Source: Erwinia pyri (lineage in GTDB: Bacteria; Pseudomonadota; Gammaproteobacteria; Enterobacterales; Enterobacteriaceae). Taken from it: a DNA stretch of 64,000 nt. The stretch is taken from NCBI RefSeq assembly GCF_030758455.1, contig NZ_CP132353.1, positions 1,240,001-1,304,000 on the forward strand. The letters run 5' to 3'. Below are positions 3,274 to 12,827 of this stretch, one piece after another. Positions within the stretch are counted from its first letter, which is position 1; the number at the start of each line of letters is the position of its first letter. Made by a program: the position numbers and the translations under genes. The notes beneath the pieces were generated by a model, which saw nothing but the letters and a program-made list of their open reading frames with translations, was not told the DNA's origin and searched no databases.

Positions 3274-4083
3274 GCTGAATCCCATTCTGATGACGTCCTC
3301 TTTTGACCCGGGGGCAAACAAAATGTTCTGTCTGCACCTGCTGAACAGCTCTTTTCGCAGGGTATCTTAATCACAAGTTACAGGGAAGGAAACGCTGATC
3401 GGGGGAAACAGGGAGCCAGATTCAGCAAAAATGGGAAATATGCCGCAAAAAATTGAATGTCCTTTGCCAGCCGCAAAATTAGCAGGCTTTTCTTAACGAC
3501 AGAAAGAACGTTAATGAGGCGCTGAAAAAGGGCGTTTCCCGCGCGATCCCATTCTTTTTGCCTGTTGCCTTGCGCTCTTACGCCGCCTGCATAATTAAAG
3601 TTAGGTAAATTTATTCAATTAAATTGATGGTGGCATGTATTTTGATTAGGTTTACTCTGAAAAACAGGCCGATCCAGGCGCGGTGCGCCAACCCTGCTTA
3701 TTAATATTATTGCTATAAACCTGTGGCTATACATTTCACAATAGTGCCGTAATATAATATAAATTCATTTGCTCATCCCAGATATCAGAATCCTGTTCAT
3801 TAATATATTAAGAGGTTATCAGATTAATCAATGCTGGTTAAATTTATTACCTTAATATTAACTGGATCTGAATTTTATCCCTTTCTGATGCTTATATTTA
3901 AATAATGCTGCATATTATAAAAGTGCAATGATTTCATCACTAAAGCATTTAAGGGAGTCTTCCTTTTCGCAGGGGCAACATCGCCTCCGAGCTATGGTAT
4001 AGATCCTCCTGTCGCCGAAGTCCGCGACAGTTTGTAACCCATTTGAGCCATCTGACTCGTTGCCCTGTTGCGGAGAGCATTCT
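3274..4083. other. Long AT-rich intergenic region between bepA and the DsrE-like pair
   Basis: About 800 bases without a convincing gene. The part from roughly 3590 to 3950 is strongly AT-rich compared with flanking genes, and sequence near 3960-4083 returns to balanced composition and probably forms the 5' leader of the gene at 4084. A perfect 7-bp hairpin (CTGTCGC / GCGACAG, 4009-4030, 8-base loop) lies in that leader without a T tract. A 24-codon hydrophobic ORF (3831-3905) has no properly spaced ribosome site. The region marks the left edge of a block absent from the E. coli bepA-perM junction. Confidence 0.6.
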
Positions 4084-4689
4084 ATGCGTCCAGTAGTATC
4101 CTATTTATTAATTGCCGTCGTAGCCGGTTTTGTCGGCGCCAGTTTTTCTAAAGCTCCCGATATTGTCGATAAACTGAGCGAGCGTTTTGGTAATAAAGCC
4201 AGCGACCCGGAAGGTTTCTGGACCACGCCAGCTATCGACGGCTATGGCAAAATTCATTACGAATCAGACGTCGCTTATAAACCGGCAGCGGGCGAGAGCA
4301 ATAAAATCGTTTTTCAGATCACCAAAGCAGAAAATGGACCGAACGATCCTAATCTCGGTCTGGAGCGGGTTGCCCGGGTGGTAAACCTCTATGTGGCTTC
4401 CGGCATTCCTGCCGACCAGCTGAAATTTGTGGTCTCCGTTACTGGCGACGGCACGCCGGCAATGCTGAATAATGAACAGTATAAAAAGTTGTTCGGTATG
4501 GACAATCCTAACCTGAAGCTGATTAGTGAGCTGCGGGCGAAAGGGGTTGATGTCTCGGTCTGCGATCAGTCGGTAGCCTTCCACCATTTCCAGCACGACT
4601 GGATTGATAAGTCTGTGACGCACGCGCTCTCCAGCCCGACCACGGTTTCAACCCTGGAGAACCAGGGCTACGCCTTCCTCGCGATGTAA
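4084..4689 (+). CDS. Membrane-anchored DsrE-family protein, copy 1
   Basis: 201-aa protein with one N-terminal hydrophobic segment (residues 5-22, uncleaved anchor or signal peptide) followed by a DsrE/DsrF-like domain. Family marks are KIVFQIT, VARVVNLYVASG, LKFVVSVTGDGTP, DNPNLKLI and VSVCDQSVA, whose Cys is the likely sulfur-handling residue. DsrE proteins transfer or bind sulfur; the function of this secreted subtype is not established. ATG 4084 is chosen because GGAG (4072-4075) lies 8 bases before it. The frame opens earlier at 4060, but that adds a Cys-rich stretch with no ribosome site. It is followed after 58 bases by a paralogue of identical length. Confidence 0.75.
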   Translation: MRPVVSYLLIAVVAGFVGASFSKAPDIVDKLSERFGNKASDPEGFWTTPAIDGYGKIHYESDVAYKPAAGESNKIVFQITKAENGPNDPNLGLERVARVVNLYVASGIPADQLKFVVSVTGDGTPAMLNNEQYKKLFGMDNPNLKLISELRAKGVDVSVCDQSVAFHHFQHDWIDKSVTHALSSPTTVSTLENQGYAFLAM

Positions 4690-4747
4690 TTCTGTTGTCC
4701 CTGTTATTTCGCGGGCCTCTGGCCCGCCAGAACCGGAGAATGCGCTG

Positions 4748-5353
4748 ATGCGTCAGACCCTCAACGTTGCCGCCGTCGCGATTATCGCCTCGCTGGCTAC
4801 CGTGGCGGCCCTTAAGGCGCCCACCATCATTGAAAAAGTGTCCAGCCTGACCGCAGGCAATGCCACCCAGCCTGAAGGATTCTGGCAGACGCCAGCGATC
4901 AAAGGATATGGCAAAATCCATAACCGGCCTGAGAGCGCGTTTCGCCCGCAAAGCAGCGAGCAGTACAACGTGGTTTTCCAGGTTCAGGATGGGCACGAGC
5001 CGAAAAAAGCGGTGAATGCCGAACTGGAGAAAGTAGCCCGCACGGTCAATCTTTATGTGGCTTCCGGCGTTCCGCTGGAGAGTCTGAAATTTGTCGTCGC
5101 CATCGCCGGGTCCGCCACGCCGGTGGTGCTGAACAATGAACGATATCGCGAAGAATTTGGGGTCGATAATCCCAATCTGCCGCTGATTGCCAGACTTCGT
5201 GAGGCGGGCGTCGTGGTTTCCGTTTGCGATCAGGCAGTCGCCGGGCATCGCTATGGCTTTGACTGGGTGGACAAAAATGTCACCCACGCGCTCTCTAACC
5301 TGACCACTATTACTACGCTGGAGAAAAAAGGCTATATGCTGATGCCGATGTAA
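4748..5353 (+). CDS. Membrane-anchored DsrE-family protein, copy 2
   Basis: 201-aa paralogue of the preceding gene, about half identical by eye and alignable end to end. It shares the N-terminal hydrophobic segment, the PEGFWxTPAIxGYGKIH stretch near residue 43, NLYVASG, LKFVV, VDNPNLPLI and the Cys motif VSVCDQAVA. The pair looks like a tandem duplication that has since diverged; keeping the Cys in both argues both are functional. A GGAG lies about 11 bases before the ATG. Probably an operon with copy 1. Partners, periplasmic location and sulfur chemistry are inference from the family. Confidence 0.75.
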   Translation: MRQTLNVAAVAIIASLATVAALKAPTIIEKVSSLTAGNATQPEGFWQTPAIKGYGKIHNRPESAFRPQSSEQYNVVFQVQDGHEPKKAVNAELEKVARTVNLYVASGVPLESLKFVVAIAGSATPVVLNNERYREEFGVDNPNLPLIARLREAGVVVSVCDQAVAGHRYGFDWVDKNVTHALSNLTTITTLEKKGYMLMPM

Positions 5354-5431
5354 GCGGCATCGCTTTTCTGCCTCTCTGCGGGTTATCAACAATCATTTTA
5401 CTGTCATAAATCGCTGCTAACTTGCCTGCCA

Positions 5432-5445
5432 TGAGATCGATCTCA
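5432..5445. promoter_or_regulatory. Perfect 14-bp palindrome, candidate LacI-family operator
   Basis: TGAGATCGATCTCA reads identically on both strands and has the central CG typical of LacI/GalR-family operators. It ends 16 bases before the GTG start of the LacI-type regulator at 5462, where it would control that gene and the importer genes behind it. Assignment to this regulator is inference. Confidence 0.55.
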
Positions 5446-5461: not shown

Positions 5462-6475
5462 GTGACAGATTTATTACGCGTGGCCAAACTGGCTGGTGTT
5501 TCCCGCGCAACGGCGGCCCGGGCATTTTCCTCGCCTGAGCTGGTGCGGGAAGAGACCCGGCATAACGTATTTGCGGCCGCCGAGCAGCTGGGCTTCCGTC
5601 CCAACCATATTGCCCGTCAGCTGCGCACGCAATCCTCGCGCACGCTGGGGGTGCTGCTTCCCTCCCTGAGAAATCCCGTCTTTGCCGAACAGCTGCAGGC
5701 CATGGAAATCGCTGCGCAGAAAAAGGGCTATGCGCTGCTGATCGCTACCAGTGATTATCAGCCCCAGCGGGAAGCTGAGATCGTCGAGAATATGCTGCGC
5801 CAGCGCGTTGACGGCCTGGTGCTGACCGTGGCAGATGCTGACAACAGCGCGGTACTCTCTGATCTCCAGCAGGAGGCTGTTCCCGTGGTGCTGGTGCATA
5901 ATGCACCGCAAAAAATCGCGCTGCCTTCAGTCTGCGTGAATAACCGCCAGGCGATGCGGCAGGCCACAGAACATCTGCTGGCGCTGGGGCACCGGCATAT
6001 CGGCATGATCGCCGGGCCGATCCTGCAGTCAGACCGTGCGCTGCAACGCTACCAGGGCTATTGCGACGCGATGAGCTCAGCCGGCCTGCAGCCCGCTTCC
6101 GTGCTGGAAATGCCCAGCCATACCCGCTCCGACTTACAGACCCTGCTGCCCGCTTTGCGTGGCGGCCAGGCAATGACCGCATTGCTTTGTACCAATGACC
6201 TTCTGGCCATCAGCGTGATGGGCGAGCTGCTGCGTGCGGGCTACCGCGTGCCGCAGCAAATTTCCATTATCGGCTTCGACGGCATTGACCTCGGGCGGCT
6301 GGTTTATCCGTCGCTGACCTCAGTAGTGCAACCTTTACGGAACATGGGAACCCAGGCGATTACGCATCTGCTGACGTTGATCGCCGGACAGCACGCTGAC
6401 TCCCTCCTGCCGCTGCCCGCGCAGTTAAGGCTGGGGGAAAGCATCGCGCCGCCTCCTGTTCCGATTTTTCTATAA
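5462..6475 (+). CDS. LacI/GalR-family transcriptional regulator
   Basis: 337 aa. Residues 4-50 form a LacI-type helix-turn-helix (VAKLAGVSRATAARAFS) with a hinge-like LGFRPNHIARQLRT. The rest is a periplasmic-binding-protein-like sensor domain (RTLGVLLPSLRNPVFAE, IGMIAGP, CTNDLLAISVMGELLRAG, IIGFDGIDLG). The GTG start has GAGGG about 8 bases upstream. The first gene of an apparent operon with the ABC importer (30-base gap to the binding protein), so it is the likely local repressor responding to the imported compound or a product of it. The effector is unknown. Confidence 0.88.
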   Translation: MTDLLRVAKLAGVSRATAARAFSSPELVREETRHNVFAAAEQLGFRPNHIARQLRTQSSRTLGVLLPSLRNPVFAEQLQAMEIAAQKKGYALLIATSDYQPQREAEIVENMLRQRVDGLVLTVADADNSAVLSDLQQEAVPVVLVHNAPQKIALPSVCVNNRQAMRQATEHLLALGHRHIGMIAGPILQSDRALQRYQGYCDAMSSAGLQPASVLEMPSHTRSDLQTLLPALRGGQAMTALLCTNDLLAISVMGELLRAGYRVPQQISIIGFDGIDLGRLVYPSLTSVVQPLRNMGTQAITHLLTLIAGQHADSLLPLPAQLRLGESIAPPPVPIFL

Positions 6476-6505
6476 CCTTTATGACACCAACATCCGGGAA
6501 AACTT

Positions 6506-7525
6506 ATGTTACAGCGTAAACAGTTCAGCAAGATTGCCGCCGCCGCGCTGCTGGCGGGAAGTGCTCTGTTCAGTCAGATGGCGTCAGCCGCTGATGCCAT
6601 TTGTTATAACTGCCCGCCAGAGTGGGCCGACTGGGGCACGCAGCTGAAAGCGATTGCCAGAGATACCGGGATCAACGTCCCGCAGGACAACAAAAACTCC
6701 GGCCAGGCGCTGGCACAGCTGGTGGCTGAAAAGGCCAATCCGGTAGCAGACGTGGCCTACCTGGGGGTGACCTTCGGCATCCAGGCAGCCAAATCTGATG
6801 TGGTTCAGCCCTATAAACCCGCAGAGTGGGATGCGATCCCGGCCGGAATGAAAGATCCTGACGGCAACTGGGTAGCGCTGCACTCCGGCACGATGGGCTT
6901 TATGGTGAACGTGGATGCGCTGGGCGGCCTGCCGGTACCGCAGTCCTGGAACGATCTGTTAAAGCCTGAATACAAAGGCATGATTGGCTTTCTCGATCCT
7001 TCAAGCGCCTTCGTTGGCTATGTTGGCGCTGTTGCGGCAAATCTGGCGATGGGCGGCACGCTGAATGATTTCGGTCCGGGCCTGGCTTACTTTAAAAAGC
7101 TCTCTGCCAATAAACCGATTGTGCCGAAGCAGACGGCTTATGCCCGGCTGCTCTCTGGCGAGATCCCGATTATGCTGGACTACGATTTCAACGCCTATCG
7201 TGCAAAGTATACCGACAAGGCCAACGTCGCCTTCGTGATCCCGAAAGAGGGGACTATCACCGTGCCTTACGTCATCAGCCTGGTGAAGAACGCGCCGCAC
7301 GGCGACAACGGCAAAAAAGTGATCGACTATGTGCTTTCCGACAAGGGACAGGCTATCTGGGCCAACGCTTATCTGCGTCCGGTTCGTCCGGAAGCGATGT
7401 CGGCGGAAGCGAAAAAACGTTTCCTGCCGGAAAGCGACTATGCCCGTGCTAAAACGGTCAATTATCAGCAGATGGCTGATGTGCAGAAAGCTTTCTCTGC
7501 CCGTTATCTGAGCGAGATCCAGTAA
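6506..7525 (+). CDS. ABC transporter periplasmic solute-binding protein
   Basis: 339 aa with a signal peptide cleaved near residue 28 (MASA-AD). The mature part resembles the iron/thiamine/phosphonate/spermidine-type binding proteins (SBP_bac_6/13-like), for example VADVAYLGVTFGIQAAK, SWNDLLKPEYKGMIG and an ALHSGTMGFMVN segment. Two Cys sit right after the cleavage site (CYNC, residues 33-36), which could form a disulfide. The substrate cannot be read from sequence. The linked phosphodiesterase suggests an organophosphate or phosphodiester. Its stop overlaps the next start (TAATG), indicating translational coupling. Confidence 0.88.
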   Translation: MLQRKQFSKIAAAALLAGSALFSQMASAADAICYNCPPEWADWGTQLKAIARDTGINVPQDNKNSGQALAQLVAEKANPVADVAYLGVTFGIQAAKSDVVQPYKPAEWDAIPAGMKDPDGNWVALHSGTMGFMVNVDALGGLPVPQSWNDLLKPEYKGMIGFLDPSSAFVGYVGAVAANLAMGGTLNDFGPGLAYFKKLSANKPIVPKQTAYARLLSGEIPIMLDYDFNAYRAKYTDKANVAFVIPKEGTITVPYVISLVKNAPHGDNGKKVIDYVLSDKGQAIWANAYLRPVRPEAMSAEAKKRFLPESDYARAKTVNYQQMADVQKAFSARYLSEIQ

Positions 7526-8397
7526 TGTCCGTGCCGTTGCTCAGCACCCCTACGCACGCCCAGCCGGGCGGACGTAGGGGGTCGCTTCTCCGCAAAGTGC
7601 AATGGATGCTGGTGCCAGCGCTGCTCTTTTTCGCCGCGTTCTGGCTGTTACCCTTCGCCAGACTGGTGATGATGGGGATGCAGCCCGATAACAGCACCGG
7701 CGTAAATGCTTACTGGACTATTCTCACCCAGCCGCAGTATCTCCGCAGCCTGGGCGTTACCGTGCTTCTCTCGCTGCTGGTCTCCCTGCTGGCGGTGGCT
7801 CTCTGTGCCATCACTGGCTGTTTCCTCGCCCGCCATCACTTTACCGGTCGCTCCGTTTTACTGGCCATGCTGACCTTCCCGCTCGCCTTTCCCGGCGTGG
7901 TGGTGGGATTTTTAGTGGTGATGCTGGCGGGGCGGCAGGGGCTGCTGGCGCAAATCAGCCTCGCGCTGTTTGGTGAGCGCTGGGTATTTGCCTACTCGCT
8001 GGCTGGCCTGTTTGTCGCCTACCTCTACTTTTCTGTTCCCCGCGTGGTGATGACGCTGGTGGCTGCCTGCGAAAAACTCGACCCGTCTTTGGAAGAGGCC
8101 GCGCGTTCTCTGGGCGCAAGCCAGTGGCGGGTGGTCTGGGATGTGATTGTTCCGGGCATCTCGCCCGCGCTCTTCTCCAGCGGTGCCATCTGTTTTGCCA
8201 CCAGCATGGGCGCATTTGGTACGGCGTTTACGTTAGGGACCGATCTGAAGGTGCTGCCGCTGACCATCTACGGAGAGTTTACCAATTATGCCAATTTCGC
8301 CACTGCGGCCGCGCTGTCGGTAGCCATGGGCGGCGTGGCCTGGCTGGCACTCATTCTGGCGCGCTGGCTGGCCGGTGACCATAAGGGGATCGCGTGA
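7525..8397 (+). CDS. ABC transporter permease, subunit 1
   Basis: 290-aa inner-membrane protein with about six transmembrane segments. It has the binding-protein-dependent permease EAA loop (EEAARSLGASQWRVVW, near residues 192-207) that docks with the ATPase. Overlaps the binding-protein stop by one base and the next permease start by four, so the operon is tightly coupled. Similar in type to PotB/PhnU-like permeases; substrate unknown. Confidence 0.9.
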   Translation: MSVPLLSTPTHAQPGGRRGSLLRKVQWMLVPALLFFAAFWLLPFARLVMMGMQPDNSTGVNAYWTILTQPQYLRSLGVTVLLSLLVSLLAVALCAITGCFLARHHFTGRSVLLAMLTFPLAFPGVVVGFLVVMLAGRQGLLAQISLALFGERWVFAYSLAGLFVAYLYFSVPRVVMTLVAACEKLDPSLEEAARSLGASQWRVVWDVIVPGISPALFSSGAICFATSMGAFGTAFTLGTDLKVLPLTIYGEFTNYANFATAAALSVAMGGVAWLALILARWLAGDHKGIA

Positions 8398-9218
8398 AGA
8401 AACGCTCAAAACTGTTCTGGCTGCAGCTGACTTTTACCCTCAGCCTCTGCCTGTTTATGGTGGTGCCCATCCTGCTTTCCCTGCTGGCGGGCGTGACCAC
8501 CAATGCTTTTGTTGGCCTGAAAAGTGGACTGACGCTTCGCTGGGTTGAACAGGTCTGGGAGATGTATGCGGGCACGTTGTGGCTCTCGGTGCTGATTGCG
8601 CTGAGCTGCGTGGCGTGCGTACTGCTGGTCGGCGTCCCCGCCGCATGGGGATTGCTGAAAACACCTTCCCGCTGGGCGGGCCGCATTGAGGAGTTTCTGT
8701 TGCTGCCGGTGGCGTTACCGGGGCTGGCGACAGCATTGGGGCTGATTGTGGTCTATGGCGGATTTCACGATCTGCGCAGCAGCTGGCTCTTTATTCTGAT
8801 CGGTCACGTGCTCTTCACGCTGCCATTTATGGTGCGTCCGGTGCTGTCGGTCATGCGCACCAGCCAGCTGCTGCAGCTTGAAGAGGCGGCTGCCAGCCTG
8901 GGCGCCAGCTTCTGGCGGCGCTTCTTTACCGTTATCGTGCCGAACTGCCGCAACGGCATTCTGGCCGGCGCTTTTATGGTGCTGACGCTCTCAATGGGTG
9001 AGTTCAATATCACCTGGATGCTGCATACGCCGCTGACTAAAACTTTGCCGGTTGGGCTGGCGGACAGCTATGCCTCAATGCGACTGGAAGTGGGTTCAGC
9101 TTACACACTGATTTTTCTGGCGATCGTCCTGCCGCTGCTGATGGCAATGAGCTGGCTGACCCGGCTTACGCAGCGCCGGACGGACGCCGGAACGCTATCT
9201 GTTAAGGAGACAGTCTGA
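8394..9218 (+). CDS. ABC transporter permease, subunit 2
   Basis: 274-aa inner-membrane permease with about six transmembrane segments and an EAA loop (EEAAASLGASFWRRFF, near residues 163-178). It uses a GTG start within the overlapping GTGA of the preceding gene and ends in TGATG shared with the ATPase start. PotC/PhnV-like partner of subunit 1; the two would form the heterodimeric channel. Confidence 0.9.
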   Translation: MKKRSKLFWLQLTFTLSLCLFMVVPILLSLLAGVTTNAFVGLKSGLTLRWVEQVWEMYAGTLWLSVLIALSCVACVLLVGVPAAWGLLKTPSRWAGRIEEFLLLPVALPGLATALGLIVVYGGFHDLRSSWLFILIGHVLFTLPFMVRPVLSVMRTSQLLQLEEAAASLGASFWRRFFTVIVPNCRNGILAGAFMVLTLSMGEFNITWMLHTPLTKTLPVGLADSYASMRLEVGSAYTLIFLAIVLPLLMAMSWLTRLTQRRTDAGTLSVKETV

Positions 9219-10201
9219 TGGCAGACTCCCTGAGTATTCATTTACGTCGTTGTTCACGCACGTTTGCCGGCAATGCCGTTGCTCTGCACCCCTCTGATTT
9301 AGATATCGTGGCGGGTGAAACGCTGGTGCTGCTGGGGCCTTCTGGCTGCGGCAAAACCACCACGCTGCGTATTATCAGCGGTCTGGAGTCTTCGGACGAG
9401 GGGGGAGAAGTCTGGTTTGGCGATCGTAACGTCACCGCGCTGCCGATCGAAAAACGCAATGTCGGCATGGTGTTCCAGAACTATGCGCTGTTTCCCAATA
9501 TGAACGTGGCCGACAACGTGGGTTACGGCCTGCGCATTCAGGGTATCAACAAAACCGAGCGCCGGGCACGAGTGGACGAGATGCTGGCGATGGTGGATCT
9601 GCTGCCTTTTGCGCATCGTCCCGTTCAGGCGCTCTCGGGGGGGCAGAAGCAGCGCGTCTCGCTGGCTCGCGCGCTGGCGGCCCGGCCCAAAGTGCTGCTG
9701 TTTGACGAGCCGCTGGCAGCACTGGACGTGAAGCTTCGCGAGCGCCTGCGGGAAGAGATTGGGCATCTGCTGCGCAAGCTGGGTATGACGGCCGTCTATG
9801 TCACGCACGATCAGCAGGAAGCGATGGCGCTGGGCGATCGCATCGCCGTGCTTGAGCGGGGCCGCGTTGTGCAAATCGGCACTCCGCGGGAGATCTATCA
9901 ACATCCCGCAACCCGTTTTGTGGCGGATTTTGTGGGTGCCATTAACTGCATTCAGCCCGCAACAAGCGGGAGGCCTGCACGCTATTGCCGTCCTGAAGAT
10001 ATTCAGCTGAGCCAGACAGCCACCGGGCACCGCAGCGGACGGATAGTTGAGCAGCTGTTCCTGGGAGCCAGCCAGCGTCTGTTTATTGATATTGGCGGCG
10101 AAAAGCCTGTTCAGGTGGAGCGTGCTGCCCGCGAGCAGTGGCACACTGGCCAGCAGGTTGGGGTAATTATCGCCGACGAACTGATGATGAATTTTGATTA
10201 A
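9218..10201 (+). CDS. ABC transporter ATP-binding subunit (PotA/FbpC type)
   Basis: 327-aa ATPase with Walker A GPSGCGKTT (residues 40-48), Q-loop MVFQNYALFPN, signature LSGGQKQR, Walker B VLLFDEPLAALD and switch His in VTHDQQEA. A shorter C-terminal TOBE-like region follows (from about 240). This architecture is shared by spermidine, ferric iron, thiamine and phosphonate importers. Cytoplasmic partner of the two permeases directly upstream; followed after 21 bases by the phosphodiesterase gene. Confidence 0.92.
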   Translation: MADSLSIHLRRCSRTFAGNAVALHPSDLDIVAGETLVLLGPSGCGKTTTLRIISGLESSDEGGEVWFGDRNVTALPIEKRNVGMVFQNYALFPNMNVADNVGYGLRIQGINKTERRARVDEMLAMVDLLPFAHRPVQALSGGQKQRVSLARALAARPKVLLFDEPLAALDVKLRERLREEIGHLLRKLGMTAVYVTHDQQEAMALGDRIAVLERGRVVQIGTPREIYQHPATRFVADFVGAINCIQPATSGRPARYCRPEDIQLSQTATGHRSGRIVEQLFLGASQRLFIDIGGEKPVQVERAAREQWHTGQQVGVIIADELMMNFD

Positions 10202-10222
10202 GGTGAACAAAGGAAATCTATT

Positions 10223-11056
10223 GTGACTCAGCAAGCTGTTCTAATCGCGCAAATCAGTGATTTACATATTAAAGCTGGCGGAAAACTCTCTTATCGCCAG
10301 GTCGACACGCTGGGGGCGCTGCGAAAAGCAATCAGCCGACTGAACTCGCTCTCTCCGCGCCCTGATGCTGTGGTCATTACCGGAGACCTTGTCGACTTCG
10401 GCAATCAGGAAGAGTATCAGACTTTGCAAGTGGCGCTGGGGGCGCTGGAAATTCCCTACTGGCTGATGGTGGGAAATCATGACGATCGGCAGGCGGTGCG
10501 CAAAGTCTTCGCCGGACAAACTGAGCTTTTTCAGCACCACGAATTTATCCAGTGGGAAGCAGAGTGCGGGCCGTTACGCCTGCTGGCGCTGGACTCCACC
10601 GTGCCCGGCGAGCCGCAGGGCGAACTCTGTGCCGGGCGGCTGAACTGGCTGGAGGAGAAGCTGGAGGAGCAACCTTCACGCGCAACGCTGGTGATGCTTC
10701 ATCATCCGCCCTTTATCAGCGGCATTGAGCATATGGATCGTCAGCGTTTACAAAACCCTCAGCAGCTGGCTACCGTGCTGGAGAAGCATTCACAGGTAGA
10801 ACGCGTGCTCTGCGGGCATCTCCACCGTAGCATGCACGTTGCCTTTGCGGGAACGGTTGCCTGTAGCGCGCCTGGCGTTTCCCACCAGGTAGCGCTGGAT
10901 CTGCGCCCGGATGGCCCGGCGCACTTTTGCCTGGAACCTGCCGGATTTTTACTGCATCGCTGGACGCCAGAGCAGGGTGTTATCACCCATCAGTGCGTCA
11001 TTGAGCAGTCTGACGGCCCCTATCCTTTCTATGACGAGAACGGATTGATCGATTAA
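10223..11056 (+). CDS. GpdQ/CpdA-type metallophosphodiesterase
   Basis: 277-aa class III calcineurin-like phosphodiesterase. The full metal-ligand set is visible: ISDLH (residues 11-15), GDLVDFG, GNHDD, LHHPP and GHLH. Overall it resembles the glycerophosphodiesterase GpdQ and cyclic-AMP phosphodiesterase CpdA. No signal peptide, so cytoplasmic. GTG start with AAAGGA about 9 bases upstream. As last gene of the importer operon it is likely to hydrolyse an imported phosphodiester (glycerophosphodiester or similar). A role on cyclic nucleotides cannot be excluded. Confidence 0.85.
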   Translation: MTQQAVLIAQISDLHIKAGGKLSYRQVDTLGALRKAISRLNSLSPRPDAVVITGDLVDFGNQEEYQTLQVALGALEIPYWLMVGNHDDRQAVRKVFAGQTELFQHHEFIQWEAECGPLRLLALDSTVPGEPQGELCAGRLNWLEEKLEEQPSRATLVMLHHPPFISGIEHMDRQRLQNPQQLATVLEKHSQVERVLCGHLHRSMHVAFAGTVACSAPGVSHQVALDLRPDGPAHFCLEPAGFLLHRWTPEQGVITHQCVIEQSDGPYPFYDENGLID

Positions 11057-11193: not shown

Positions 11194-11226
11194 ATGAATC
11201 GCTTCATCGAGGTGAGTCCATGTTGA
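11194..11226 (+). CDS. Possible 10-codon leader ORF overlapping the cyclase start
   Basis: ATG 11194 opens a 10-residue frame (MNRFIEVSPC) ending at TGA 11224-11226. The diguanylate cyclase ATG (11220) lies inside its last codons, and the cyclase ribosome site (GAGGTGAG) lies inside it. AAGG about 9 bases before 11194 could serve it. If translated it would couple or modulate cyclase translation. The frame may be chance. Confidence 0.3.
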   Translation: MNRFIEVSPC

Positions 11227-12827
11227 GGCTTAGTCGCCCCAAGACGGACTTGCGTACGCTTATTACATTATTAGCCGTGGCCAGCATTGTGATTACGCTG
11301 GCCAACTCGCTCTACGCCACCTGGCGCGTACAGCGCGAAGTGCTGATTACCAATACGCTGGAAACAAACCGCGTCTACGCCACCAAACTCGCTTCCACCA
11401 CCGAAATGTTCTTTCAGCTGGCTCAGTCCCAGCTGGCCTACAGCGCGAAAGTGCTGGGTGAGGGAATGGATGATGAAGCGGCGCTGCAGAGTGAAGTCGA
11501 TCGCCTGCGCGAACAGACTAACAGCTTCAACTCGGTGGTCATTGTGGATGCTAAGGGCTGGGTAAAAGCGATCTCTCCGGAGTCGCTGATGCTGAAAGGC
11601 ATGCATCTCACCACCAGTTCCACCACTCAGGCGCTGACAGAGCGTAAGCCGCTGATTAGCAAACCGACCATTTCGGCTGCCAATAATTTAATGGTGTTCG
11701 TCTCTTATCCGGTCTGGTCAAAGACCGGTAGCTATCTGGGCTTTGTCGGCGGCACGATTTACCTGAAGAAAAAAAGCATTCTGAATGAGCTGCTGGGCGA
11801 GCAGTTCTATCGCGACGGCTCTTCGCTCTATGTGGTGGATGGCGATAACCGCGTGCTCTATCACCAGAATGGCAGGCTGGTGGGGCAGAAAATAGCGCCG
11901 CTTATCAGCCGCTCTCTGCTGCAGAAGAACGGTAACGGCTATCAGGAGATCCCGAAACAGAGCGGTGAGCCGATGCTGGCTGGCTATGCCAGCGTCCCGA
12001 CGCCGGGCTGGATGATTGTGGCGCTGAAGCCGACCCAGACCACGCTCGAACCGCTTAACAGCCTGCTGTTCAAGGTACTGCAACACTCCGTGCCCTTTGC
12101 CCTGCTGACGCTGATTTGCGCGTGGATCCTCGCCCGCCTGATTGCGTTACCGCTCTGGCAGCTGGCGCGTAAGGCGAGCCAGATGGATGCTCCCGGCGTC
12201 TCTAAAGAGATTAACGGTATCCACTCCTGGTATTATGAAGCGTCGCAAATCAAGCGCGCCATGTTGGCGGGTATCGGTCTGTTGCAGGACAAAATTGGCC
12301 GCCTGAAGTTTGAGGTACAAACTGACCCGATGACGGCGCTGCTTAACCGTCGCGGCCTGAATGCGGTGCTGGAGTATTTTCTGGCGACCCGTCAGCCTTT
12401 TGCCGTACTGGTGCTGGATATCGACCACTTCAAACGGGTTAACGATACCTGGGGACACGATGTGGGCGACAGCGTTATCAAAAGCGTGGCGGAGCAGCTG
12501 GGGAAAAGTTCACGGCAGACCGATGTGGTGTGCCGTAACGGCGGCGAAGAGTTCCTGATGATCCTGCCGGGTGCCGACCGTGACATCGCCATAGTGATTG
12601 CCGAACGCGTACGTAAGAAGATTGAAGCGCTGGAGCTGCCGGTAGTGGGGCATATCTCTATCTCCATTGGCGTGGCGTTCTGGACTGCCGATGAGCGTCC
12701 GATGGAGCTGGTGTTCAAGCAGGCCGATGATGCGCTTTATCAGGCAAAAAATGGTGGCCGCAACCGGGTGGTGACCAGCCAGCCCGAGCTGGTTGAAGCC
12801 GGTGAACTTCAGCGCCGTAACGGATAG
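11220..12827 (+). CDS. Membrane diguanylate cyclase with periplasmic Cache-type sensor
   Basis: 535 aa. A transmembrane segment at about 16-36 is followed by a roughly 245-residue periplasmic region of PDC/dCache type. A second transmembrane segment near 285-305 leads to a short linker and a C-terminal GGDEF domain. The active-site variant is GGEEF (residues 441-445), which is catalytically competent in this family. RQTD placed five residues before it forms an intact inhibitory I-site. It should make cyclic di-GMP in response to an unknown periplasmic ligand. ATG 11220 follows GAGGTGAG closely. It is separated from the phosphodiesterase by 163 bases and probably has its own promoter. Confidence 0.9.
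   Translation: MLRLSRPKTDLRTLITLLAVASIVITLANSLYATWRVQREVLITNTLETNRVYATKLASTTEMFFQLAQSQLAYSAKVLGEGMDDEAALQSEVDRLREQTNSFNSVVIVDAKGWVKAISPESLMLKGMHLTTSSTTQALTERKPLISKPTISAANNLMVFVSYPVWSKTGSYLGFVGGTIYLKKKSILNELLGEQFYRDGSSLYVVDGDNRVLYHQNGRLVGQKIAPLISRSLLQKNGNGYQEIPKQSGEPMLAGYASVPTPGWMIVALKPTQTTLEPLNSLLFKVLQHSVPFALLTLICAWILARLIALPLWQLARKASQMDAPGVSKEINGIHSWYYEASQIKRAMLAGIGLLQDKIGRLKFEVQTDPMTALLNRRGLNAVLEYFLATRQPFAVLVLDIDHFKRVNDTWGHDVGDSVIKSVAEQLGKSSRQTDVVCRNGGEEFLMILPGADRDIAIVIAERVRKKIEALELPVVGHISISIGVAFWTADERPMELVFKQADDALYQAKNGGRNRVVTSQPELVEAGELQRRNG

Follow-up and report, generated by a model that had tools for sequence, protein, structure and literature searches.

A conserved Erwinia pyri operon with a predicted Pho box and LacI operator, a probable importer of phosphodiesters

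The window considered here is a 64,000-nucleotide stretch of the Erwinia pyri genome (contig NZ_CP132353.1, positions 1,240,001 to 1,304,000). Between window positions 5462 and 11056, six tightly packed open reading frames (ORFs) lie on the same strand and encode a LacI-family regulator, the four components of an ATP-binding cassette (ABC) importer and a metallophosphodiesterase. Two predicted regulatory DNA sites are located immediately upstream. The features of the locus are as follows.

5390..5411, + strand: Pho box, a predicted PhoB site, CAATCATTTTACTGTCATAAAT, matching the consensus at 18 of 22 positions; a weaker third repeat may reach 5422
5432..5445, + strand: predicted LacI-family operator, the perfect palindrome TGAGATCGATCTCA, ending 16 bp before lacI
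5462..6475, + strand: LacI-family repressor gene with a GTG start and the recognition helix SRATAAR (337 aa; ORF and domain searches)
6506..7525, + strand: periplasmic substrate-binding protein gene, SBP_bac_6 (PF13343) (339 aa; ORF and domain searches)
7525..8397, + strand: ABC permease 1 gene, BPD_transp_1 (290 aa; ORF and Pfam)
8394..9218, + strand: ABC permease 2 gene, BPD_transp_1 (274 aa; ORF and Pfam)
9218..10201, + strand: ABC ATPase gene, ABC_tran and TOBE_2 (327 aa; ORF and Pfam)
10223..11056, + strand: GpdQ-type metallophosphodiesterase gene, Metallophos, product predicted to be cytosolic (277 aa; ORF and Pfam)
5340..5362, + strand: terminator-like hairpin of the upstream gene, which sets the operon apart (from a pattern scan only, with 10 such sites in 6 kb versus 6.2 expected)

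In gene order, the junctions consist of a 30-bp gap, TAATG, GTGA, TGATG and a 21-bp gap. The gene set and these three junction sequences had been given in an initial annotation made from the sequence, and both are borne out by the ORFs, the Pfam domains and the DNA itself. The regulator matches the LacI helix-turn-helix and periplasmic-binding-protein-like domains (PF00356, PF00532 and PF13377) over their cut-offs and thus belongs to the LacI family. No NCBIfam model reached its curated cut-off among the matches listed for the six proteins, which for permease 1 are the best 25 of 34 and for the ATPase the best 25 of 187. A scan for sigma-70 promoters found none at the start of the operon, which is neutral as evidence because a Pho promoter need not be visible in such a scan.

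The arrangement of these genes is widely conserved. When the binding protein was searched against 398 Pseudomonadota genomes, its subfamily was recovered in 30, at 61-80% identity besides the query itself (100%), with the remainder of the matches at 38% or less. The surroundings of the 29 others were fetched and the six proteins mapped by tblastn, because simple ORF calling went wrong for some high-GC genes; the counts over 30 genomes include the window's own. The binding protein, both permeases and the ATPase occur together in 30 of 30 genomes, and the phosphodiesterase follows the transporter in 29 (all but L103), a layout that is beyond chance. Retention of this enzyme in homologous loci was one of the two points on which the initial annotation had staked its proposal, and it is borne out. 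The lacI gene precedes the cassette in 26 genomes and is missing in L097, L098, L100 and L101, all of family f48. Carriers include Mangrovitalea, Pseudomonas fuscovaginae, Caballeronia, Cupriavidus and Azospirillum lipoferum, and Ruegeria has the same layout as judged by annotated gene order. In E. coli genomes, blastn gave no match to positions 6506-8394 (binding protein and permease 1). Among the locus records, L046 (same place as L041) and L001 and L009 (the window itself) were excluded, and L030-L038 are further Enterobacteriaceae places without wide flanks. Clustering of neighbouring genes, most of which were outside the domain search, revealed no catabolic gene common to the loci beyond the six.

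Two of the related loci have been reduced. Erwinia endophytica has lost both lacI and the operator, with a best LacI match of 34% and thus no close LacI in its genome, and has kept the Pho box, the transporter and the phosphodiesterase. Pantoea sp. BAV 3049 carries a natural internal deletion (L040, 9481-10825) that leaves the first 87 residues of lacI and, of the transporter, only the end of the ATPase gene; the operator and a Pho-box-like site are retained.

The last gene of the operon encodes a relative of GpdQ. Its residues D13, H15, D55, N85, H160, H199 and H201 align with D8, H10, D50, N80, H156, H195 and H197 of GpdQ, which we take to be the metal ligands of that enzyme, and all seven are invariant in 24 aligned proteins, including a Klebsiella GpdQ-like one. 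Inspection of the N-terminus, MTQQAVLIAQISDLHI, by eye gives no indication of a signal peptide, so that the alignment and the N-terminus agree with the original description of an enzyme with all metal ligands and no export signal. The nearest solved structures are 2dxl and 2zo9 (E 2e-40), which, together with 3d03, are presumably GpdQ of Klebsiella (Enterobacter) aerogenes. In an 85-row tree, three CpdA rows, the organism's own copy included, split off with 100/100 support, and the window enzyme groups with GpdQ relatives; 30 of 114 matched loci (among them the short-flank L010-L038, and L046) were left out before the tree was made. The cassette enzymes cluster in this tree without forming one clade (5 changes versus a shuffled mean of 19.9).

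Enzymes of this type are also found beside other transporters. A phosphodiesterase search at E 1e-35 or better returned 55 places in 51 of the same 398 genomes, 29 of them in the cassette. At L052-L065, which are related to the Klebsiella locus, an ATPase gene adjoins the phosphodiesterase in 13 of 14 ORF maps, and transporter-like genes adjoin it in 7 of 20 further non-cassette places (L112, L116, L117, L119, L121, L124 and L129). GpdQ-type enzymes therefore appear to partner ABC importers repeatedly, if not always. Several of these settings are distinctive in their own right. The Klebsiella GpdQ-like gene (L074, 6229-16344) lies in a carbohydrate-type ABC operon adjoining iol genes, for which glycerophosphoinositol is a natural candidate substrate. 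On a Mesorhizobium plasmid (L072, 335-14103), a phn C-P lyase cluster encloses a GpdQ-like gene and a peptide-type ABC transporter, which hints at phosphonate esters. In L123, L125-L128 and L131, a phosphodiesterase of 33-38% identity stands behind two or three conserved genes, which in L123, the one locus of these covered by the domain search, encode a cyclic-nucleotide-binding 4Fe-4S protein, an uncharacterised protein and a multihaem cytochrome-like protein.

The two DNA sites upstream of lacI were absent from the initial annotation, and they bear most on the function of the operon. The site at 5390-5411 has the highest score on either strand of the window for what we take to be the Pho-box consensus, and none of 200 shuffled sequences scored as high; the operon thus has a predicted upstream Pho box, as is typical of the Pho regulon. 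Scores of at least 15 occur in the 200 bp before the first gene at 22 of 39 loci (L040 lies outside this set), compared to 11 of 650 control regions upstream of other genes in these loci. The p-value of this enrichment, 8e-21, is too strong because related loci are not independent. As positive controls, the regions upstream of pstS and phoB (380 bp each) from seven genomes scored at least 16 in 13 of 14 cases, the exception being phoB of G408 with 11. In the E. pyri genome itself, pstS and phoB score 20 each and ugpB (250 bp) scores 16. When loci are grouped by family, with named loci assigned by hand and Pseudomonas placed in f12, the medians show a strong signal in the family of the window, in f12 and in some others, and a weak one in the rest.

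The second site, at 5432-5445, is a palindrome with a central CG, as is typical of LacI-family operators. It is the sole exact copy of TGAGATCGATCTCA in the 4.76-Mb genome, where the next best site has two mismatches; there is no second exact site in the genome that could hint at the substrate. The same sequence is present in 18 further loci, starting 25-47 bp before the matched lacI start, and nowhere else in 1.93 Mb of fetched, partly overlapping sequence. The identity of this palindrome tracks the recognition helix, for which we used the residues presumed to contact DNA in LacI. All 20 loci whose LacI protein has the SRATAAR helix carry the operator, 19 of them exactly (the window included) and L041 with one mismatch. 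Proteins with other helices, mostly S-x-ATVSR, are preceded by a related palindrome in 17 of 19 loci, 15 with an AACGTT core, under a pattern that was loosened after inspection of the sites at L086, L091, L092, L094 and L095; no related palindrome was found before lacI in L102 and L103. The operator of L089, TGTAATCGATTACA, has an ATCGAT core, yet its LacI lacks SRATAAR, which indicates that the helix corresponds more closely to the outer bases (TGAG..CTCA) than to the core. Such joint change of helix and operator is what would be expected if the LacI protein binds the palindrome, and this pairing makes the regulator directly testable. As one part of the broader proposal given below, and as tentatively as the rest of it, one LacI lineage may have exchanged its helix along with its operator, the common TGNAAACGTTTNCA form giving way to TGAGATCGATCTCA.

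By both sequence and fold, the binding protein scores slightly better against binders of hexose phosphates, 2-aminoethylphosphonate (AEP) and pyridoxal phosphate (PLP) than against those of iron and polyamines. Its fold neighbours bind glucose 6-phosphate, fructose 6-phosphate and PLP, and AEP by annotation; the structure 5t1p comes from a C. jejuni gene. A sister clade of 29-38% relatives includes one member in the E. pyri genome (L104), where the Pho-box score is 18. Among eight sister loci, five (L104 and L106-L109) contain, in this order, a divergent regulator, the binding protein, a type I phosphodiesterase (PF01663), two permeases and an ATPase, followed by either a Na/Pi-cotransporter-PhoU protein or a HAD hydrolase. 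The PF01663 domain was assigned by Pfam in L104 and by similarity cluster in the others, and the regulator is of the GntR-UTRA type by Pfam in L104; the locus maps of L105, L110 and L111 show no PF01663 gene. Each of two branches of this transporter family is accompanied by a phosphodiesterase, and the two folds are unrelated, which suggests an imported molecule with an ester bond that has to be cleaved. In L089 (13423-15081) and L093, a Na/Pi-cotransporter-PhoU protein of the same cluster as those of L104 and L106 (domain assigned by Pfam in L089 and L104 only) is encoded directly after the phosphodiesterase, and its possible role is the export of surplus phosphate.

Gene content and its conservation, active-site residues, both conserved DNA sites and the pairing of operator with helix were observed directly, and from them we consider it likely that the operon is a phosphorus-scavenging module, activated by PhoB and gated by LacI, that imports a phosphodiester for cleavage in the cytosol as UgpBAECQ does. 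Binding by PhoB and LacI, import, the bond hydrolysed and the substrate class are predictions from sequence, and the scheme would operate as follows. Under phosphate starvation, PhoB bound at the Pho box would activate transcription, and the LacI-type protein encoded by the first gene would repress it through the palindrome near the presumed transcription start until it meets its ligand, which would be the substrate or one of the products of cleavage. In the periplasm, the binding protein would capture an organophosphate diester whose alcohol part is probably a sugar, a polyol or another small alcohol, and the two permeases and the ATPase would import it intact. Cytosolic hydrolysis of the diester by the GpdQ-type enzyme would then yield a phosphomonoester and an alcohol, from which general enzymes might draw phosphorus and carbon. 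The idea that an intact phosphorus compound is imported and its phosphodiester bond cleaved inside the cell was already part of the initial annotation, and this core is strengthened by the regulatory sites and by the conservation of the enzyme.

A broader proposal is advanced with less confidence and falls somewhat short of probable. The cassette could represent an undescribed Pho-regulon system, distributed over several families of Pseudomonadota, that scavenges a sugar- or polyol-containing phosphodiester and is gated both by PhoB, reporting the need for phosphate, and by a dedicated LacI protein, reporting the substrate. With the sister clade included, the same proposal holds that a single transporter family may have enlisted two phosphodiesterases, unrelated to each other, to do the same job.

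A number of observations weigh against such a function. Pho-box scores are just 12-13 in 11 of the 39 loci, and the family median is at least 14, a level attained by 7.7% of controls, in only 7 of 12 families. The transporter at L103 is without a phosphodiesterase, the phosphodiesterase of Pantoea sp. BAV 3049 is intact despite loss of the transporter, and 26 of the 55 phosphodiesterase places are outside the cassette. Some published data also point the other way. AepS of Pseudomonas putida BIRD-1, whose operon layout resembles the sister loci, transports a phosphonate and is made in all growth conditions (PMC8316502), and in a phoBR mutant the protein remained detectable, at a lower level in the exoproteome (PMC5082522). 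The binding protein of a comparable Phaeobacter cluster stayed up in a phoB mutant (PMC10132767). Finally, PhnJ is encoded in 18 of the 30 cassette genomes, the organism's own included.

This last count favours the main rival, which we regard as unlikely, namely that the operon imports a phosphonate (AEP or a phosphonate O-ester) in the manner of AepS or PhnS and that the enzyme removes the ester before C-P cleavage elsewhere. The best NCBIfam models for the binding protein are indeed of the PhnS type for AEP, all under cut-off (123 bits against 310, 112 against 395 and 90 against 393), and the GpdQ-like gene within the Mesorhizobium C-P lyase cluster, the AepSTU-like gene order of the sister clade and the transport of a phosphonate by AepS keep this explanation alive. 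However, PhnJ is absent from 12 of the 30 cassette genomes, neither PhnJ nor PhnW exceeds its cut-off in 4 of 30 (other phosphonate routes were not searched), and the operon itself contains no C-P gene. Moreover, LacI regulators usually sense sugars or nucleosides.

The other explanations that were weighed are set lower. Uptake of a phosphomonoester such as a hexose phosphate, with the phosphodiesterase serving another purpose, would fit the closeness of the binding protein to AfuA and VcA0625 in sequence and fold; it is improbable given that 29 of 30 loci continue with a phosphodiesterase-type enzyme, an unrelated one is present in 5 of 8 sister loci, and no kinase, isomerase or phosphatase is encoded in the operon by Pfam domains. 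A signalling phosphodiesterase acting on cAMP or another cyclic nucleotide, placed in a transporter operon by chance, is a very improbable reading. Its basis is that SpdA and CpdA provide the two best NCBIfam models for the enzyme, but both matches fall under the curated cut-offs (143 bits against 400 and 127.7 against 225), and the genome has its own CpdA-like gene elsewhere, distant in the tree (branch 2.81, 100/100). Least probable of all is an importer of iron or a polyamine. Binders of these ligands share the fold of the binding protein, but organophosphate binders score better, and the upstream site found is a Pho box (the scan did not cover Fur sites). FbpA binds iron through an adjacent tyrosine pair, and the 339-aa binding protein has no adjacent Tyr-Tyr pair.

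The genes flanking the operon offer further observations. A gene for a dCache-GGDEF diguanylate cyclase (window 11220-12827) adjoins the phosphodiesterase gene, with counterparts at L040, L047 and L076 recognised by ORF length or cluster rather than by domain. Upstream, at 4060-5353, two tandem paralogous-looking proteins of ~200 aa each are encoded; no Pfam or NCBIfam model matches the second (the first was outside that search). ORFs of similar size occur at L039 (one), L040 and L076.

To our knowledge, importers that supply phosphorus by taking up phosphodiesters intact are few. If the preferred interpretation of the operon as a phosphodiester importer is true, it would add a conserved and regulated example with a short list of testable ligands and would place GpdQ-type enzymes in a physiological context, as partners of ABC importers. 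It would also caution against trusting the labels 'iron' or '2-aminoethylphosphonate' given to PF13343 binding proteins. The literature searched, which largely excluded subscription papers, yielded no account of a LacI-PF13343-phosphodiesterase operon.

Several known systems resemble parts of this operon. GpdQ of Klebsiella (Enterobacter) aerogenes shares the enzyme family, all metal ligands and a C-terminal YDEN motif with the window phosphodiesterase, from which it differs at 33% identity. In Klebsiella pneumoniae, the gene nearly identical to 2dxl is likewise inside an ABC operon, although the transporter there, unlike that of the window operon, carries a sugar/carbohydrate ABC annotation and has inositol genes beside it. 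AepSTU of P. putida BIRD-1 and PhnSTUV of Salmonella are also SBP_bac_6 (PF13343) organophosphorus transporters, but their substrate is AEP, and the window proteins are under the PhnS/T/U/V cut-offs. In BIRD-1, GntR 3890, binding protein 3891 and ATPase 3895 are up at low phosphate (PMC5082522), and 3891 is the AepS protein of the auxiliary AEP transporter AepSTU (PMC8316502). The sister clade has the gene order of this BIRD-1 region, a likeness of layout and not of compared AepSTU sequences, and most sister loci differ from the window operon: their regulator is of the GntR type, and a PF01663 phosphodiesterase gene separates binding protein and permease. In Phaeobacter, MED193_11288-11308 comprise a predicted phosphodiesterase and a sugar ABC transporter that are up at low phosphorus, with the phosphodiesterase and ATPase undetected in a phoB mutant (PMC10132767). 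A Pho-linked pair of enzyme and importer has thus already been published there, as table rows, and is a precedent in favour of the preferred interpretation. The resemblance to the window operon, a low-phosphorus-induced predicted phosphodiesterase with an ABC transporter, is one of description and not of compared sequences, and the sugar ABC annotation is a difference.

The closest parallel is UgpBAECQ, which has a binding protein, two permeases, an ATPase and a cytosolic phosphodiesterase in the same functional order. The earlier statement that no characterised system has this layout therefore does not hold, as ugpBAECQ matches it apart from lacI. The ugp operon of E. coli is under Pho control, and the E. 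pyri ugpB gene has a Pho-box score of 16. The parts nevertheless differ, in that the window operon has SBP_bac_6 instead of UgpB, a metallophosphoesterase instead of a GDPD enzyme, and an added LacI regulator. Models for UgpB, UgpA, UgpE and UgpQ are not among the matches listed at E up to 0.001 (again the best 25 of 34 for permease 1 and of 187 for the ATPase), and the UgpC model matches the ATPase below its cut-off (305 bits against 432). E. pyri also encodes ugpBAECQ itself, with all five proteins over their cut-offs. Given that UgpBAECQ works in the same manner and is present in the same genome, the window operon would be a second, non-homologous solution equipped with a LacI gate, and by this comparison it most likely serves another diester than Ugp.

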